35,795 nt of DNA, from positions 1-35,795 of the forward strand of contig NZ_DYZD01000311.1 of the NCBI RefSeq assembly GCF_020741345.1, given 5' to 3'. The notes under the pieces are model-generated. The model worked only from the letters and a program-made list of their open reading frames with translations. It had not been told where the DNA came from and searched no databases. Of the stretch, positions 1 to 6,493 are shown piece after piece. Positions within the stretch are counted from its first letter, which is position 1, and each line of letters opens with the position of its first letter. The position numbers and the translations under genes were made by a program. The DNA comes from Nocardiopsis listeri (GTDB taxonomy: Bacteria > Actinomycetota > Actinomycetes > Streptosporangiales > Streptosporangiaceae).

Positions 1-806
1 ACCCGCACCACGTTGGGTTGGGCCACGTCGCACACCCCCGCCTCGACGAACCGCTCGAACTCCTCGACGCCGCGCAGGTTCTCCCCCAGGGCGAAGGGCA
101 CCGCGGTGCGAGCCCGCAGGCGTTCGTGCGCGGCCAGGTCCTGGGCCGGCAACGGCTCCTCCACGAAGAGCGGATCGTGTTCGGCCAACCGGTCCAGGGC
201 CCGCACGGCGGTGGGCACGTCCCAACGCTGGTTGGCGTCCACCATCAGCGTCCGATCCGGGCCCAACACACCGCGCACCGCGCCGACCCGTTCGACGTCG
301 CGCGTCACCTCGGCCGATCCCACCTTGATCTTGGCTGCCCGATGCCCGGACCCGACCCAGGAACGCACCTGTTCGAGCAGGTCGGTGGAGTCGTAGTCGA
401 GATTGACCCCGCTGCCGTAGGCGGCGACCCGGTCGCGACGCCGACCGAGCAGGTCCACCAGCGACACCCCGGCCGCCTTGGCCTGGACATCCCACAGGGC
501 GATGTCCACCCCGGCCAGGGCCATCAGGGTCAACCCGGTGGTGCCCGCCTCGCGCAGGTGCCACCGCAACTCCTCCCACCGGCACGGGTGGGCGGACCCG
601 CCCACCACCACCGGCGCCAGGTCGGCGTTGACCAAAGACTCCACCGCCCCCGCCCCGATCAGCGGAGTCCAGGAGAACCCGGTGCCCACCACCCCGGCGT
701 CGGTGGCGACCCGCACCACCACGATGTCGTTGCGGTCCACACCGCCGTCCCAGGCCCGCCGTAGCGGCAGACGGAACGCGCGGGCCGCCACCTCGGTGAC
801 ACGCAC
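1..806 (-). CDS. Mandelate racemase/muconate lactonizing family enzyme (enolase superfamily), 3' end cut by window
   Basis: The minus-strand reading frame gives 268 residues of an enolase-superfamily enzyme before the window edge; the C-terminal part with the usual catalytic His is missing. The barrel catalytic motif KIKVG (K159, K161) is present. Three metal ligands are spaced as in mandelate racemase: D190 (VDANQRW), E216 (VEEP) and E242 (GEN). These enzymes abstract a proton alpha to a carboxylate. Members act as sugar-acid dehydratases (glucarate, galactarate) or as galactarolactone cycloisomerase. The start is GTG at 806, four bases after the stop of the KdgD-like gene, so the two are probably co-translated. 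Because KdgD uses the product of glucarate or galactarate dehydration, I infer an aldarate dehydratase or galactarolactone cycloisomerase, but substrate cannot be read from what is visible. Confidence 0.9.
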   Translation of the reverse strand, partial: MRVTEVAARAFRLPLRRAWDGGVDRNDIVVVRVATDAGVVGTGFSWTPLIGAGAVESLVNADLAPVVVGGSAHPCRWEELRWHLREAGTTGLTLMALAGVDIALWDVQAKAAGVSLVDLLGRRRDRVAAYGSGVNLDYDSTDLLEQVRSWVGSGHRAAKIKVGSAEVTRDVERVGAVRGVLGPDRTLMVDANQRWDVPTAVRALDRLAEHDPLFVEEPLPAQDLAAHERLRARTAVPFALGENLRGVEEFERFVEAGVCDVAQPNVVR

Positions 807-810
807 TCGC

Positions 811-1716
811 TCAGCCCTTCTCGACCAGGGACAGGCCGGTCTCGATCAAAGCCGACAGCTCGGCCTCCTCCTTCGAGGTCAGGTCGACGAAGGGGGCGCG
901 CACCGCGCCCGCCCGCACCCCGCGCAGCCGGGCCCCGGCCTTGACCAGCGACACCGCGTACCCCGGGGAACGATCGCGCAGCCGCACCAGCGGGTCGTAG
1001 AACTGGCTCACCAATCGCCCGGCGAGCGGGTCGGCGGAGTGGAAGGCCTTGTAGAAGGTGTCGGCCACCTCCGGGACGAACGCGAAGGCCGCCGAGGAGT
1101 ACAGGGGCACACCCACCCCGGAGTAGGCCGCCACGGTCAACTCCGCGGTCGGCAACCCGTTGAAGAACGTGAAGTCCGCACCGCGCACAGAGCGCACCGC
1201 CAACACGATCTGATGCATGTTCCCCAGATCACCGACACCGTCCTTGATGCCCACCACCCGCGGTATGGCCGCCAGCTCGGCCGCCGAATCGGGGGAGAAC
1301 ACCATCGAGCCGCGCTGATAGACGATGATGGGGATCTCCACCGCCTCCGACACCGCCCTGACGTACTCCACCAGACCCCGCTGGGGCGCCGAGACCAGGT
1401 AGGGCGGCAACAACAAGATGCCGTCCGCGCCCGACGCCAGCGCGGTCCGCGCCTGCTCGATGGCGGTGCCCACGCTGCCGCCGGCACCGGCCACCACCGG
1501 GACGGCGCCGTCGACCACCTGGACCGTACGACGCACCACCGCGGCGTGCTCGTCCGCGGACAGGGCGTGGATCTCACCGGTGCCGCAGGCGGTGAACACC
1601 CCACCGGCCCCATGGGCCACACCCGAGGCCACGTGCTCGGCGAGCACCTCCTGGTTCACCGCTCCGGCGTCGTCGAAGGGTGTGAGGGGAAAGAACAGGA
1701 TCCCGTCGAAGTTCAT
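811..1716 (-). CDS. kdgD: 5-dehydro-4-deoxyglucarate dehydratase (KdgD-like, DapA/NAL aldolase superfamily)
   Basis: A 301-residue TIM-barrel protein of the dihydrodipicolinate synthase superfamily. The Schiff-base lysine is K158 in VVGIKDGVGD and the partner tyrosine is Y133 in IIVYQRGSM. The start FDGILFFPLTPFD and the segment FFNGLPTAELTVAAYSG are typical of KdgD (EC 4.2.1.41) rather than DapA. KdgD converts 5-dehydro-4-deoxyglucarate to 2-oxoglutarate semialdehyde, CO2 and water in the oxidative route for galacturonate and glucuronate. The ATG at 1716 has an AGGAG ribosome site eight bases upstream. It lies 55 bases after the epimerase gene and four bases before the enolase-superfamily gene. 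With the divergent pectate lyase this points to use of pectin-derived uronates. The dehydratase assignment is by motif memory; a related aldolase specificity is possible. Confidence 0.82.
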   Translation of the reverse strand: MNFDGILFFPLTPFDDAGAVNQEVLAEHVASGVAHGAGGVFTACGTGEIHALSADEHAAVVRRTVQVVDGAVPVVAGAGGSVGTAIEQARTALASGADGILLLPPYLVSAPQRGLVEYVRAVSEAVEIPIIVYQRGSMVFSPDSAAELAAIPRVVGIKDGVGDLGNMHQIVLAVRSVRGADFTFFNGLPTAELTVAAYSGVGVPLYSSAAFAFVPEVADTFYKAFHSADPLAGRLVSQFYDPLVRLRDRSPGYAVSLVKAGARLRGVRAGAVRAPFVDLTSKEEAELSALIETGLSLVEKG

Positions 1717-1771
1717 GCGCGCTTCTCCTTGTCACGAGGGCGCCGCCCCTGGCGGCGGGGTCGGATGTGTT

Positions 1772-2671
1772 TCACAGGACGTACTGGACGTGGCGGCGGG
1801 CCATGGTCGCGATGACGTCGTCACCGTCGGCGGCCCAAACGTCGGCGTTGAACACCTCCCACTCGACGTCGCCCTCGTAACCGGCGGCGCGTACCGCCCG
1901 ATACAGGGAACGAACGTCGATGTGGCCATCGCCGACCATGCCCCGTCCCAACAGCGGGTCGGCGGGCAGGGGCAGGACCCAGTCGCACACCTGGAAGGAG
2001 GCGATGCGCCCACGCGGCCCCGCCCAGGCGATGTGCTCGTACACCGCCGGGTCCCACCACACGTGGTAGGTGTCCACCACCACGCCCACCTGTTCGGCGG
2101 GGAAGGGTTCCGCCCACTCCAGGGCCTGCCCCAGGGTGGACAGCACCGCGCGGTCGGCGCAGAACATCGGATGCAGGGGCTCCAACCCCAGCCGCACACC
2201 GCGTTCGGCGGCGTAGGGCGCCAGCACCCGCAGGGCCTCGGCCACCCGTTCCCGGGCGCCGGCCAGGTCGCGGTCGCCTTCGGGGAGACCGCCCACCACC
2301 ATGACCAGGACGGGGGCACCCAGTTCGGCGGCCTCGTCCAGCGCTCGACGGTTGTCGTCCAGCGCCGCCGCGGGGTCGGGATCGGTGAGGAACCCGCCCC
2401 GGCAGTAGGTGGACACCCGCAGACCCGAGTCGCGCAGCAGACGCGCGGACGCCGCGAGCCCGGCCTCGGCGACCTGTTCGCGCCAGGGGCCGATGGCGGG
2501 CACGCCGGCGCGCAGGCAGCCGTCCACCGCCTGACGCAGGCTCCAGTACTTGGTGGTGGCCTGGTTGAGGGAGAGCCGCGACAGGACCGCGTCGCCCGGG
2601 GCCGGGGTGGGCACCGCGGCCTTGAGCCCGGAGGGCACGTCCACGTCGGTGGCCTGGGGGACGATGGTCAT
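1772..2671 (-). CDS. Sugar phosphate isomerase/epimerase-like TIM barrel (xylose isomerase-like, AP endonuclease 2 fold)
   Basis: A 299-residue protein of the xylose isomerase-like barrel family. Likely metal ligands are E164 (LGLEPLHP), D200 with H203 (VDTYHVWWD), Q227 (ASFQVCDW) and E272 (VEWEVF); GDGHID at 248-252 is a usual substrate-side motif. Members isomerise or epimerise sugars and keto-sugars or cleave related rings; the substrate is not predictable. Its ATG overlaps the stop of the DUF993 gene in an ATGA (2668-2671), which indicates translational coupling. With the oxidoreductase upstream it may handle a keto-sugar made by that enzyme; this is inference. Confidence 0.85.
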   Translation of the reverse strand: MTIVPQATDVDVPSGLKAAVPTPAPGDAVLSRLSLNQATTKYWSLRQAVDGCLRAGVPAIGPWREQVAEAGLAASARLLRDSGLRVSTYCRGGFLTDPDPAAALDDNRRALDEAAELGAPVLVMVVGGLPEGDRDLAGARERVAEALRVLAPYAAERGVRLGLEPLHPMFCADRAVLSTLGQALEWAEPFPAEQVGVVVDTYHVWWDPAVYEHIAWAGPRGRIASFQVCDWVLPLPADPLLGRGMVGDGHIDVRSLYRAVRAAGYEGDVEWEVFNADVWAADGDDVIATMARRHVQYVL

Positions 2672-3828
2672 CGGTCCACCCCCGAAACGCGCAGCAGCGA
2701 ACCCATGCGCTCCATCGCCAGGTCGGGGTCGTTGAGCGCCCCGGCCCGATCCGCCAGGCGCAGGATCTGCGCCAGGTGGGGCAGCGAACGCGCGCTGTGC
2801 AGCCCACCCACCATGTGGAAGCCCTTCTGGTGGCCGTTGAGCCAGGCCAGGAAGGTGATCCCGGTCTTGTAGTAGAAGGTGGGCGCGGAGAACAGGTGCC
2901 GGGCCAGGGGCACGGTGGCGTCCATCAGCTCTCGGTAGCGGGCCGTGTCGCCGCCGTCCAGCGCCGCCAGGGCACGGCCGGCCACCGGGGCGATGGCGGC
3001 GAAGACACCCAGCAGGGCGTCGGAGTGACCGTGCTCGTCGCCCTGGATCAGCTCGGGGTAGTGGAAGTCGTCGCCGGTGTACAGGCGCACCCCTTCGGGG
3101 AGCAGCCGGCGCAGGCGCACCTCCAGGTCGGCGTCGAGCAGGGACACCTTGATGCCCTCCACGCTCGCGGCGTGGTCGGCGATCAGCTCGGCCACCGGTT
3201 CGATCGCCTCGGCCGGATCGCGGTACCCCCAGTAGCCGGCCAGGGCCGGGTCGAAGGCCTCACCGAGCCAGTGCAGGATCACCGGACGCTCGGCCCGCTC
3301 CAACAGTGAGGCGTAGACCTTGGTGTAGTCGTCGGGAGCCTGGGCCACCGCGGCCAGTGCGCGCGAGGCCATCAGCACGGGAGCGGCCCCGGCGTCCTGG
3401 ACGGTGTCGAGTTGTTCGACATACGCCTGGACAACGCTTTCCAAAGACCGTCGAGAAGGCCCCGGTTGGTCGGTGCCCACCCCGCAGGCCAGGGCGGCTC
3501 CGCGACCGGCGGCCTCGGCGCCCGAGCGACGGATCAACTCGGCGGTGGCGGGCCAGTCCAGTCCCATGCCGCGCTGGGCGGTGTCCATCGCGTCGGCCAC
3601 GCCCAGGCCCTGGTCCCACAGGTGGTGTCGAAAGGCCAGGGTGGCGTCCCAGTCCAGACGGGCCGGCTCTCCGGGCGCGTTGACGGCGGTGGGGTCGGCG
3701 ACCACATGGGCGGCGGCGTAGGCCACACGGGTACGCGCGGGGGACAGGGCAGTGGTCTCGGCGCGGGGGCCGGTGGGGGTGAAGGGGGCGGTGCCGCCTT
3801 CGGGGGAGGGCAGCATCAGTTCGGTCAT
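2668..3828 (-). CDS. DUF993 family protein (DapA-like TIM barrel)
   Basis: A 386-residue protein that I recognise as DUF993, a family usually described as dihydrodipicolinate synthase-like but without a settled reaction. Conserved-looking segments are VILHWLGEAFDP (about 183-194), EGIKVSLLD with K227 as candidate Schiff-base lysine, YTGDDFHYPELI (about 250-261), and FYYKTGITFLAWLNGHQ near the C-terminus. The start chosen is ATG at 3828, which overlaps the stop of the Gfo/Idh gene by four bases; an upstream in-frame extension to 4026 would run antiparallel across the translated region of that gene and is rejected. It sits between an oxidoreductase and a sugar epimerase, both overlapping it by four bases, so a sugar-acid aldolase or dehydratase role is a reasonable inference. 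Confidence 0.85.
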   Translation of the reverse strand: MTELMLPSPEGGTAPFTPTGPRAETTALSPARTRVAYAAAHVVADPTAVNAPGEPARLDWDATLAFRHHLWDQGLGVADAMDTAQRGMGLDWPATAELIRRSGAEAAGRGAALACGVGTDQPGPSRRSLESVVQAYVEQLDTVQDAGAAPVLMASRALAAVAQAPDDYTKVYASLLERAERPVILHWLGEAFDPALAGYWGYRDPAEAIEPVAELIADHAASVEGIKVSLLDADLEVRLRRLLPEGVRLYTGDDFHYPELIQGDEHGHSDALLGVFAAIAPVAGRALAALDGGDTARYRELMDATVPLARHLFSAPTFYYKTGITFLAWLNGHQKGFHMVGGLHSARSLPHLAQILRLADRAGALNDPDLAMERMGSLLRVSGVDR

Positions 3829-4979
3829 CGGGTCGTCACCTCGCTCAGCTCGACGGTGCGCCCGGTACGGGCCGAGTCCAGCCCCGCCTCGGCCATCTGG
3901 ATGCCGCGCGCCCCGGAGAGCAGGTCGTGGGGGAAGTCGGTGCCCAGAACCACGTGTGCCAGGAAGGCCTCCCACTGGGCCCGGAAACCGTTGGGGAAGT
4001 CGGTGTTGTCGGGGACCCGCTCCCACTGGTCGCGGTAGCCTCCCGCGTCGACGGCGTCGGGGTCCCAGGTCGCCTTGGGGGTGGTGGAACGGTGCTGGAC
4101 GCGGCAGTGGCGCAGACCCGCCACTGCACTGCCGTGGGTGCCGTCCACCTGGAACTCCACCAGCTCGTCACGGTCCACCCGCACGCTCCAGGAGGAGTTG
4201 ATCTGGGCGATGGTGCCGTCGGTGAGTTCGAAGATGCCGTAGGCGGCGTCGTCGGCGGTGGCCTCGTAGGCCCGGCCCTGCTCGTCCCAGCGACGGGGGA
4301 TGTGGGTGGCGGTGCGGGCGGTGACGGTGCGCACCGGGGAGAACAGGTGCTCCAGGACGTAGTGCCAGTGCGGGAACATGTCCAGTACGATGCCGCCTCC
4401 CTCCTCGGCCCGGTAGTTCCAGCTGGGCCGCTGTCCGGGCTGCCAGTCGCCCTCGAAGACCCAGTAACCGAACTCGCCGCGGATGGAAAGAATCTTTCCG
4501 AAGAAACCGCTGTCCACGAGCCTGCGGAGCTTGAGCAGGCCGGGCAGGAAGAGCTTGTCCTGGACCACGCCGTTGCGCACCCCCGCCTGCTCGGCGAGCT
4601 TGGCCAGCTCCAGGGAGGCCTCCAGGGTGTCGGCGGTGGGCTTTTCGACGTAGACGTGCTTGCCCGCGGCGATGGCCGAACGCACCGCCGCCTCACGCGC
4701 GTGGGTGATCTGGGCGTCGAAGTAGATCGAGACGCCGTCGTCGGCCAGCACCGCGTCCAGGTCGGTGGACCAGCGTTCGATGTCGTGTCGCCGGGCGATC
4801 TCGCGCAGCTTCTGCTCGGAACGTCCCACCAGCACCGGTTCGGGGATGACCCGGGTGCCGTCGGGCAGCTCCAGGCCACCGGCGTCGCGGATCGCCAGGA
4901 CCGAACGGGTCAGGTGCTGCCGATAGCCCATTCGACCGGTGACGCCGTTCATCGCGACGCCCAGCACGTGGTCTGCCAT
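3825..4979 (-). CDS. Gfo/Idh/MocA family oxidoreductase
   Basis: A 384-residue NAD(P)-dependent oxidoreductase. The N-terminal Rossmann fold has MNGVTGRMGYRQHL (10-23) in place of a plain GxGxxG. The family EKP motif is at E112-K113-P114 (YVEKPTAD), with K113 the expected catalytic lysine. The second domain begins near FGYWVFEGDW and includes LDMFPHWHYVLEH, probably at the active site. The family oxidises sugars, cyclitols or their acids. It is the first gene of the minus-strand operon, with ATG at 4979 preceded by GAGAGGTGG. A LacI-type operator lies 22-34 bases upstream of the start. Substrate is not predictable; a uronate or derived keto-sugar would fit the neighbours. Confidence 0.9.
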   Translation of the reverse strand: MADHVLGVAMNGVTGRMGYRQHLTRSVLAIRDAGGLELPDGTRVIPEPVLVGRSEQKLREIARRHDIERWSTDLDAVLADDGVSIYFDAQITHAREAAVRSAIAAGKHVYVEKPTADTLEASLELAKLAEQAGVRNGVVQDKLFLPGLLKLRRLVDSGFFGKILSIRGEFGYWVFEGDWQPGQRPSWNYRAEEGGGIVLDMFPHWHYVLEHLFSPVRTVTARTATHIPRRWDEQGRAYEATADDAAYGIFELTDGTIAQINSSWSVRVDRDELVEFQVDGTHGSAVAGLRHCRVQHRSTTPKATWDPDAVDAGGYRDQWERVPDNTDFPNGFRAQWEAFLAHVVLGTDFPHDLLSGARGIQMAEAGLDSARTGRTVELSEVTTR

Positions 4980-5000
4980 GGGTTGTTACCACCTCTCTTT

Positions 5001-5021
5001 GAAAGCGCTTTCCAAAGCGTA
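5001..5021 (-). promoter_or_regulatory. LacI-family operator and possible -10 element of the catabolic operon
   Basis: Bases 5001-5012 are the perfect palindrome GAAAGCGCTTTC. Read on the minus strand, 5013-5001 is GGAAAGCGCTTTC, one of three copies of GGMAAGCGYTTKC in the intergenic region. The central CG and flanking half-sites are typical of LacI/GalR-family repressors. A possible minus-strand -10, TACGCT at 5021-5016, would place the transcript start inside the operator, consistent with repression. No good -35 is visible and the repressor gene is not in the window. Confidence 0.65.
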
Positions 5022-5170: not shown

Positions 5171-5183
5171 GCAAACGCTTGCC
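5171..5183 (-). promoter_or_regulatory. Second LacI-type operator copy in the shared intergenic region
   Basis: The minus strand here reads GGCAAGCGTTTGC, matching the 13-base consensus shared with 5001-5013 and 5362-5374. It lies midway between the divergent genes, about 160-190 bases from each of the other two copies, a layout that would allow DNA looping. Looping is inference. Confidence 0.55.
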
Positions 5184-5323
5184 AATAATCTCCGAGTGTG
5201 ATCGACCCTCCACGAATGTGCGCATGCTGGGGGCGCGTGGAAACATCACCCTGACGAACCCGCTTCGACCTGCCATGACATGAGGAAAGAGCGGTCGCGA
5301 GCGAATCTTTCACGTTGCCGGCA

Positions 5324-5361: not shown

Positions 5362-5374
5362 GGAAAGCGTTTGC
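5362..5374 (+). promoter_or_regulatory. LacI-type operator just downstream of the pectate lyase promoter
   Basis: The sequence GGAAAGCGTTTGC is the third copy of the consensus GGMAAGCGYTTKC. Its position directly after the predicted transcript start is the classic place for a repressor block. It ties the pectate lyase to the divergent uronate genes. Confidence 0.65.
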
Positions 5375-5497
5375 ACGAATACGGGGCACACTCCCGTTCG
5401 GCGCACGGGCCCACTCCCGAGACGCCATCGACCGCACACCGTTTCCGTTCAGGGGCGTCCCGCGCTTCCCACCCCCCGATTCCGAAGGAAACCCATC

Positions 5498-6493
5498 ATG
5501 CGATCCGTGACCGACAAACCCCGCACCCCCATACGCACCGTCCTGCTGGCCACCAGCGCGGCCGGGGCGCTCGCGCTCGGCCTGCTCGCCGTCACCGACG
5601 ACCCCGGCTCCACCGTCCACGCCGACCTGGTCAACGCCGCCCAGGAGGCCCCTTCCGGATGGGCCGGTGAGAACGGCGGCACCACCGGCGGTGAGGGCGG
5701 CGACGTCGTCACCGTCTCCGACGCCGACGGGCTGCTCTCGGCCCTGTCGAACTCCGGTCCCCAGGTCGTCCAGATCGATGGCTCCATCGAGCTGTCCGGC
5801 ATGAACGACGTGCCCGCCGACACCACCGTCATCGGACTGGACGGCGCCCAGATCACCGGCGGTGGCCTGGACGTGGACGGTGTGTCCAACGTGATCATCC
5901 GTAACATCGCCTTCTCCGGCTGGGACGACGACGCCGTCAACGTCCAGGAGGGCAGCACCAACGTGTGGATCGATCACAACAGCTTCACCAACGGCTACGA
6001 CGGTGCCGTGGACGTCAAGCGTGAGTCGGACTTCGTGACCATCTCCTGGAACCACTTCTTCGACCACGACAAGACGTCCCTGGTCGGGCACTCCGACGAC
6101 CACACCGAAGACATCGGGCACCTGCGGGTGACCTACCACCACAACTACTTCGACGGCACCGACACCCGTCATCCCCGGGTGCGCTTCGGCAACCCGGTGC
6201 ACGTGTACAACAACTACTACCGCGACAACGACGAGTACGGCGTGGCCTCCACCATGGGTGGCGGCGTGCTCGTTGAGGGCAACTACTTCGAGGACGTGGA
6301 CAACCCCACCCACACCGGTTACGCCGATTCCGACGTCGGTGCCGTGGAGGAGAGCGGCAACGTCTTCGACGGCTCCGGCGAGCCCGAGACCGGAGGTGGG
6401 ACCGTGGAGTCGGTCCCCTACTCCTACAGCCTGGACCCGGCCGAGGACGTGCCCTCCATCGTCGGCGAGGGTGCCGGCCCCGGCAACCTGTGA
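5498..6493 (+). CDS. Secreted pectate lyase, polysaccharide lyase family 1
   Basis: A 331-residue secreted enzyme that cleaves polygalacturonate by beta-elimination. Residues 1 to about 40 form a signal peptide with arginines at 2, 9 and 13 and a hydrophobic core (VLLATSAAGALALGLLAV). The rest is a parallel beta-helix with the family signatures NVWIDHNSF (155-163, containing WIDH), VTISWNHFFDHDK (180-192) and RHPRVRFG (224-231), which holds the catalytic arginine. Acidic residues D168 and D172 in GYDGAVDVK are likely calcium ligands. The start is ATG at 5498 with GAAGGAA about eight bases upstream; the frame runs in from 5354 but the upstream part crosses the promoter. It has its own promoter and a LacI-type operator, and is followed by a strong hairpin. 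Its oligo-uronide products would feed the divergent operon. Confidence 0.95.
   Translation: MRSVTDKPRTPIRTVLLATSAAGALALGLLAVTDDPGSTVHADLVNAAQEAPSGWAGENGGTTGGEGGDVVTVSDADGLLSALSNSGPQVVQIDGSIELSGMNDVPADTTVIGLDGAQITGGGLDVDGVSNVIIRNIAFSGWDDDAVNVQEGSTNVWIDHNSFTNGYDGAVDVKRESDFVTISWNHFFDHDKTSLVGHSDDHTEDIGHLRVTYHHNYFDGTDTRHPRVRFGNPVHVYNNYYRDNDEYGVASTMGGGVLVEGNYFEDVDNPTHTGYADSDVGAVEESGNVFDGSGEPETGGGTVESVPYSYSLDPAEDVPSIVGEGAGPGNL

Follow-up and report, generated by a model that had tools for sequence, protein, structure and literature searches.

A DUF993-containing operon of Nocardiopsis and its predicted place in a pectin regulon

The stretch of DNA analysed here (the window), the first 35,795 nucleotides (nt) of a contig of Nocardiopsis listeri (NZ_DYZD01000311.1, assembly GCF_020741345.1), carries at one end a five-gene operon whose second gene encodes a protein of the DUF993 (domain of unknown function 993) family. 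Gene calls and a profile search of the window place all five genes on the minus strand, in the order Gfo/Idh/MocA oxidoreductase (GFO), DUF993, sugar phosphate isomerase/epimerase (EPI), a protein resembling the 5-dehydro-4-deoxyglucarate dehydratase KdgD, and an acid-sugar enzyme of the enolase superfamily (MR) (Table 1). An earlier note, made from the sequence alone, had described such an operon, with the first three genes overlapping by four bases and sharing an operator, and this description proved accurate: overlaps of 4 nt are present at both junctions of the trio, GFO/DUF993 and DUF993/EPI, and the operator takes the form of one palindrome upstream of GFO. Since EPI and KdgD are separated by 55 nt, and KdgD and MR by 4 nt, the operon can be described as two coupled blocks, namely the trio and the KdgD-MR pair. 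MR is incomplete because the contig itself begins at position 1 of the window; in the N. listeri locus L082, whose DUF993 protein is 95% identical, all five genes are full, MR is the last of them, and a convergent LacI gene follows, with a short-chain dehydrogenase/reductase (SDR) gene, a DUF6807 gene, two Gfo/Idh genes and a sugar ATP-binding cassette (ABC) permease-like gene located further downstream.

Table 1. Genes and sites at the operon end of the window.
Feature	Position	Strand	Basis or remark
GFO, Gfo/Idh/MocA oxidoreductase, first gene of operon and trio	3825..4979	-	PF01408, PF02894, PF22725
DUF993 protein, 386 residues	2668..3828	-	PF06187 E=1e-179; PDB 4dnh (SMc04132) 55% identical
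Codon of K227, putative Schiff-base lysine	3148..3150	-	position computed from gene start
EPI, AP_endonuc_2 / xylose-isomerase-like TIM (triosephosphate isomerase) barrel, sugar phosphate isomerase/epimerase	1772..2671	-	PF01261 E=8e-35
KdgD-like 5-dehydro-4-deoxyglucarate dehydratase	811..1716	-	PF00701; PRK03620 above cut-off, TIGR03249 below
MR, enolase-superfamily acid-sugar enzyme, incomplete at contig edge	3..806	-	PF02746 (MR_MLE_N), PF13378 (MR_MLE_C)
Predicted LacI-type operator TGGAAAGCGCTTTCA, 20 nt upstream of GFO start	5000..5014	-	palindrome, motif scan
Weak resemblance to the operator (3 mismatches), before the pectate lyase gene	5362..5375	+	chance expectation for the window ~0.8 sites
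Divergent secreted pectate lyase, polysaccharide lyase family 1 (PL1)	5498..6493	+	PF00544 E=6.7e-35

The distribution of the trio was followed in 61 gene-called DUF993 loci of the order and in 80 named genome loci across bacteria, DUF993 itself being present in 34 of 40 Nocardiopsis genomes and in 112 of the 151 genomes of the order. Within the order, GFO lies directly upstream of DUF993 in 58 of the 61 loci and EPI directly downstream in 60, and the genes found near the trio include LacI (46/61), MR (31/61) and KdgD (25/61). The same arrangement is found in the 80 named loci, which include Streptomyces, Arthrobacter, Rhodococcus, Mycolicibacterium, Actinoplanes, Rhizobium, Marinobacterium, Paenibacillus and others, and six of which have a neighbouring KdgD gene. 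GFO-DUF993-EPI is a widespread stand-alone module, usually located beside a LacI regulator; KdgD and MR are lineage-specific additions, and adjacency alone therefore does not link the trio to uronates. The GFO proteins of Nocardiopsis, Sinorhizobium, Chelatococcus and plasmid pAO1 are 54-62% identical, which argues for a single conserved reaction. An independent grouping of the trio with KdgD, MR, pectate lyase and LacI was observed in Actinophytocola, where one 12-kb cluster contains GFO, SDR, KdgD, MR, pectate lyase, a gene resembling 2-ketoglutarate semialdehyde (KGSA) dehydrogenase, LacI, DUF993 and EPI. The name uronate dehydrogenase was not adopted for the SDR proteins of related clusters, whose matches to the solved enzymes 3rft, 6mfh and 3ay3 (33-38 bits) are no closer than those to GalE.

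The neighbourhoods of DUF993 display further recurrent associations. NMT1/THI5-type ABC transporters, an odd transporter class for a sugar pathway, repeatedly adjoin the trio in several lineages (L093, L112, L055, L162). In rhizobia, roseobacters, Paraburkholderia and Rhodococcus (L004, L005, L007, L008, L009, L163), DUF993 is linked to genes for coenzyme A (CoA)-transferase, enoyl-CoA hydratase, acyl-CoA dehydrogenase, SDR and glycerate kinase; these loci are often devoid of GFO, and the lyase could there serve in a second pathway.

Evidence for the role of the module comes from its operator. Of 128 actinobacterial loci, 94 have the operator core no more than 450 nt ahead of the GFO gene, the reversed pattern being found in none of them. 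The exact 14-mer TGGAAAGCGCTTTC occurs 53 times in the 40 Nocardiopsis genomes, and its reversed control does not occur at all; when the sites were sorted by hand, 28 were seen to precede GFO and 25 to lie elsewhere. Eighteen of these 25 are situated 50-325 nt before genes for PL1 pectate lyases, PL9-type beta-helix proteins or PL1/PL9 fusions, the PL9-type proteins sharing 79% identity with a protein for which a match to Pel9A was obtained, and one more precedes an MR gene located apart from the trio (genome G013). In the genome of the window, a search for GGAAAGCGCTTTCA at up to one mismatch returned three matches only, which correspond to this operon, to one weaker match, and to a second exact copy located 56 nt before the gene for a 772-residue secreted rhamnogalacturonan-I lyase of family PL11 (PF21348, E=1e-167). 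Good copies in this genome thus mark a pectin lyase gene and the operon, apart from the one weaker match; the regulon is narrow rather than global. The lyase families that lie behind the operator (PL1, PL9-type and PL11) are mutually distinct. Among 14 other Actinobacteria that were scanned, a related motif precedes, besides the trio, PL1, sugar-binding-protein and Gfo/Idh genes in Streptomyces, and a PL11 lyase and a glycerate kinase in Arthrobacter.

Operator copies stand both before the trio and before pectin lyases, and on this regulon evidence the link to pectin is real, and stronger than the earlier note could tell. The association of the trio with pectin or uronates put forward in that note stands as far as the regulon is concerned, and would fail by the note's own adjacency criterion, as unrelated catabolic genes neighbour the trio elsewhere. 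The nominal probability of 1.8e-40 is not to be taken literally because the sites are partly orthologous. These motif data make it very probable that the trio is a member of a pectin regulon in Nocardiopsis, and the neighbouring LacI protein would presumably bind this operator.

The DUF993 protein matches PF06187 over model positions 2-382 of 382, with 597.8 bits against a cut-off of 24. Its AlphaFold model (pLDDT, predicted local distance difference test, 93.7) superposes on 4dnh (SMc04132) with a Z score of 57.5, and shares its TIM barrel with the dihydrodipicolinate synthase (DHDPS) superfamily, VIA-align giving Z 30-32 over 286-293 residues. The suggestion that K227 should be sought within the barrel was borne out, this residue being invariant in 38 diverse DUF993 proteins and positioned on strand 223-229 of the model (strand 6), which is the place of the catalytic lysine in the DHDPS superfamily. 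In addition, phmmer aligns the GIKVSLLD segment of DUF993 with the GIK segment of DHDPS, and a GDD motif is common to both; we take K227 to be the equivalent of K161 of the E. coli enzyme. Despite a common barrel (Z ~31 over ~290 residues) and the aligned lysine and GDD motif, DUF993 is distinguished from the PF00701 superfamily of DHDPS, 2-keto-3-deoxygluconate (KDG) aldolase and KdgD by its own Pfam family, additional N-terminal strands, a longer C-terminus, and changed TTGE and Tyr motifs. DUF993 is probably a Schiff-base carbon-carbon lyase, or aldolase, and our best guess is that it acts on a ketone other than the pyruvate type. A literature search for DUF993, PF06187, 4DNH, 3OQB, 3JU2 and 7VPF retrieved no paper on the function of the family, and the S. 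meliloti locus tags appeared in expression lists and network lists only, with no function given in the library that was searched.

The partners of DUF993 within the trio have invariant residues as well. GFO, whose relative in the PDB is 3oqb (E=3e-144), has an invariant EKP motif (E112-P114), D200 and H204 in 23 homologues, and its top NCBIfam match is levoglucosan dehydrogenase (NF052479, 60 bits, cut-off 650). EPI has invariant E164, D200, H203 and E270, the acidic/histidine set expected of a metal site; it resembles 7vpf, SMc04130 (3ju2/3qc0), sugar epimerases and the 3-keto-glucoside epimerase YcjR, and it displays a weak match to hydroxypyruvate isomerase (E=1e-6). A glycoside 3-dehydrogenase is not supported by curated models either, the BT_2158 and BT_2159 families scoring 20-28 bits.

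In the second block, the KdgD-like protein exceeds the threshold of subfamily PRK03620 (392 bits vs 278) and remains below that of the KdgD equivalog TIGR03249 (293 vs 374), its best PDB match being the keto-deoxy-galactarate dehydratase 4ur7 (E=1.5e-60). The full-length MR orthologue (L082, 13023-14099) retains the KIK, DANQ, EEP, GEN, D..QPN and PH motifs that are catalytic in the mandelate racemase group, and MR is related to, among others, talarate/galactarate dehydratase and anhydrogalactonate cycloisomerase. Full-length orthologues score below the galactarate/talarate dehydratase equivalog (best model NF047820, 214-231 bits vs a cut-off of 500), and the MR profile matches include no curated model for galactarolactone cycloisomerase. 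The view that the KdgD-like protein and the acid-sugar enolase form an oxidative-uronate module, with the trio outside of the known route, appears right. The closest described system is the Udh-Gci-KdgD-KGSA dehydrogenase oxidative hexuronate pathway of Agrobacterium (PMC6353982), which has in common with the operon the KdgD-like and acid-sugar enolase genes, with 4ur7 as the nearest KdgD structure, and with the Actinophytocola cluster the KGSA-dehydrogenase-like gene, but which operates without GFO, DUF993 and EPI.

It is also of relevance that the route by which pectin lyase products are usually consumed appears incomplete in this lineage. The opening of such products is usually the task of unsaturated uronyl hydrolases of glycoside hydrolase (GH) families GH88 and GH105. 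Members of these families were found in none of the 40 Nocardiopsis genomes (control genomes being positive; PL22 and other unsaturated-uronyl hydrolases were not searched). GH88/GH105 are missing from the sample even though several pectate lyases are encoded in it, with a PL11 enzyme in addition in the genome of the window. Oligogalacturonate lyases are the other means of opening the products, and KduI and KduD follow (PMC6353982). The isomerase route, made up of GH88/GH105, KduI and KduD, has the same expected substrates as the trio, namely lyase products. No match to PF04962, the family that splits into KduI and IolB, was present in the genome of the window (alternative KduI-type isomerases were not searched), and Nocardiopsis PF04962 matches were rejected as KduI, since the two that were tested are IolB and the scores of the genus fall in the IolB band. 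True KduI is present in other genera of the order. The missing GH88/GH105 enzymes in the genus sample and the missing KduI constitute a gap that the trio may fill.

Taken as a whole, these data are best read in terms of a LacI-controlled unit that catabolises the uronates released by pectin lyases and in which DUF993 would cleave a carbon-carbon bond through a Schiff base, a reading that we hold with modest confidence; that the substrate of the trio is itself a pectin-derived uronate or uronide is, on balance, probable. Secreted PL1, PL9 and PL11 lyases would generate unsaturated galacturonides and rhamnogalacturonides, an uptake system would import the fragments, and the two intracellular blocks of the operon would then consume the uronate. 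MR and KdgD would represent the tail of the oxidative galacturonate route, which leads from lactone or aldarate through 5-keto-4-deoxyhexarate to KGSA. In the trio, where both the sequence of steps and the aldol cleavage are our inference, NAD(P)-dependent GFO would form a keto-sugar or its acid, metal-dependent EPI would isomerise this product or eliminate a group from it, and DUF993 would make a Schiff base via K227 and split a carbon-carbon bond by retro-aldol cleavage. Small products could leave via glycerate and glycerate kinase, where the kinase gene is linked. DUF993 is a widespread family of sugar enzymes without an assigned reaction, despite the availability of structure 4dnh since 2012, and the narrow pectin regulon would provide it with a first concrete substrate class; if this proposal is correct, it would represent a further catabolic route for pectin uronates, and many 'dihydrodipicolinate synthase family' annotations could be corrected.

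A more detailed version of this scheme, offered tentatively and rather unlikely to hold in full, is that of an undescribed oxidative disposal of pectin-lyase products in Nocardiopsis and many Actinobacteria, in which GFO would oxidise a ring hydroxyl of a uronate that is possibly still glycosidically bound, EPI would use an elimination of the kind found in levoglucosan breakdown to cleave or rearrange this uronate, and the keto-uronate would be split by DUF993 via a Schiff base, the three enzymes thus replacing GH88/GH105 and KduI/KduD. Sets of oxidoreductases and isomerases are known to oxidise, eliminate and hydrate sugars, both in levoglucosan catabolism (PMC7676230) and, for O-glycosides, in the beta-eliminase operon of A. 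tumefaciens (PMC10628242). LgdA-LgdB1-LgdB2-LgdC and the A. tumefaciens operon resemble the trio in pairing an oxidoreductase with sugar-phosphate-isomerase-type enzymes on keto-sugars, and differ from it in that the described gene sets have no DUF993, other subfamilies are involved, and there is no pectin link. Because the scores are far from those demanded by the curated models of these families, the two systems serve as mechanistic precedent, and not as an indication of membership.

A number of observations weigh against a pectin-uronate role for the trio. The operator core was not found in seven non-actinobacterial loci, some sites precede cupin, pirin or uncharacterised genes, and the sites of sister genomes, being orthologous, are not independent of one another. 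The DUF993 genes of proteobacteria, rhizobia included, have neighbours (CoA-transferase, acyl-CoA dehydrogenase, transporters) that do not point to pectin. In other genera of the order, KduI-type PF04962 matches co-occur with DUF993, so that the trio is not simply a substitute for KduI. As for the chemistry, the TTGE carboxylate motif of DHDPS is not kept, DUF993 having T83-A84-Q85-R86 at this position (T44 corresponding to T83, and T45 being replaced by A84), and the catalytic Tyr133 is, by eye, H186; these alterations make pyruvate-type chemistry doubtful, and no pyruvate-aldolase claim is therefore made for DUF993.

The same pocket bears on a different proposal, in which DUF993 would be the aldolase branch of the aldarate route, cleaving either 5-keto-4-deoxyhexarate, the KdgD substrate, or KDG into pyruvate and tartronate semialdehyde or glyceraldehyde, with EPI acting in the manner of a hydroxypyruvate isomerase and the product flowing through glycerate to glycerate kinase, so that KdgD and DUF993 would be two exits from one intermediate. 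That DUF993 shares a superfamily with KDG aldolases and KdgD speaks for this proposal, as do the glycerate kinase genes that adjoin the trio or DUF993 in Micromonospora, Nocardia, Nocardioides, pAO1, Sinorhizobium and Octadecabacter, and that carry the operator in Arthrobacter, the weak match of EPI to hydroxypyruvate isomerase, and the 2-hydroxyacid dehydrogenase gene located after EPI in Paenibacillus. The change of the 2-keto-acid carboxylate pocket (T45 to A, Tyr133 to His), the lack of an obvious role for GFO past the aldarate stage, and the absence of a neighbouring glycerate kinase gene from the majority of trio loci make it rather unlikely. It is unlikely, too, that the trio degrades an unrelated compound (a cyclitol, a polyol or a deoxysugar, for example) and has simply come, in part of the Actinobacteria, under the control of a LacI regulator for plant biomass whose targets also include pectinases: the varied neighbourhoods outside Actinobacteria, with their NMT1-type transporters and CoA-ester genes, and the weak resemblance of GFO and EPI to inositol-pathway enzymes would be accounted for, but not the restriction of good operator copies in the genome of the window to a pectin lyase gene and the operon, bar one weaker match.

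The earlier note had suggested that the trio may provide KdgD with a substrate by converting a side product of pectin (a keto-sugar, or a modified galacturonate or rhamnose unit), an idea that fits the shared operon of Nocardiopsis and the cluster of Actinophytocola, and for which, by our own reasoning, C1 oxidation of a 4-deoxy-5-ketouronate would chemically yield the KdgD substrate. The trio stands without an adjacent KdgD gene in more than half of the loci of the order and in nearly all other genera, and as its general role the supply of KdgD is unlikely; as an explanation of the trio, it was not borne out and appears quite doubtful. Nor did genome-level co-occurrence, which had been proposed as a check, lend it support: odds ratios of 13-19 for KdgD are hardly above the 10-11 of arabinose isomerase. 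Across the order, DUF993 and KdgD co-occur with an odds ratio of 18.8 (101/10/14/26), the values being 10.1 for arabinose isomerase and 7.7 for pectate lyase; in genomes of at least 7 Mb without an adjacent KdgD gene, KdgD and arabinose isomerase both give a ratio of 5.7, and pectate lyase gives 1.8. With arabinose isomerase comparable, and the difference gone on large genomes, this co-occurrence was dropped as evidence; it mirrors general sugar use.

With regard to the lyases themselves, secreted fusions of an N-terminal PL1 and a C-terminal PL9-type domain (L244, 802-3468; L260, 733-3423) carry the same operator. Weak sites near the pectate lyase of the window (the one listed in Table 1, and another at 5171-5184 detected by eye) are at chance level and were not counted. 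The PL1 gene itself is not at the corresponding place in L082 or in the 91%-identical locus L037, and resembles a strain-specific insertion, or the remainder of repeated loss, next to a pectin operon.

Lastly, the same trio is found in SMc04130-SMc04133 of Sinorhizobium meliloti, for which structural genomics has provided structures of EPI (3ju2/3qc0) and DUF993 (4dnh); this operon differs from that of Nocardiopsis in having a TetR regulator, no adjacent KdgD, and an additional enolase-like protein of another subfamily. Enolase-like proteins of 460-470 residues adjoin the trio both in S. meliloti (L006, 10175-11590) and in Chelatococcus (L162, 6390-7778); they are 43% identical to each other, match MR_MLE_C barely or not at all, and form a subfamily of their own.

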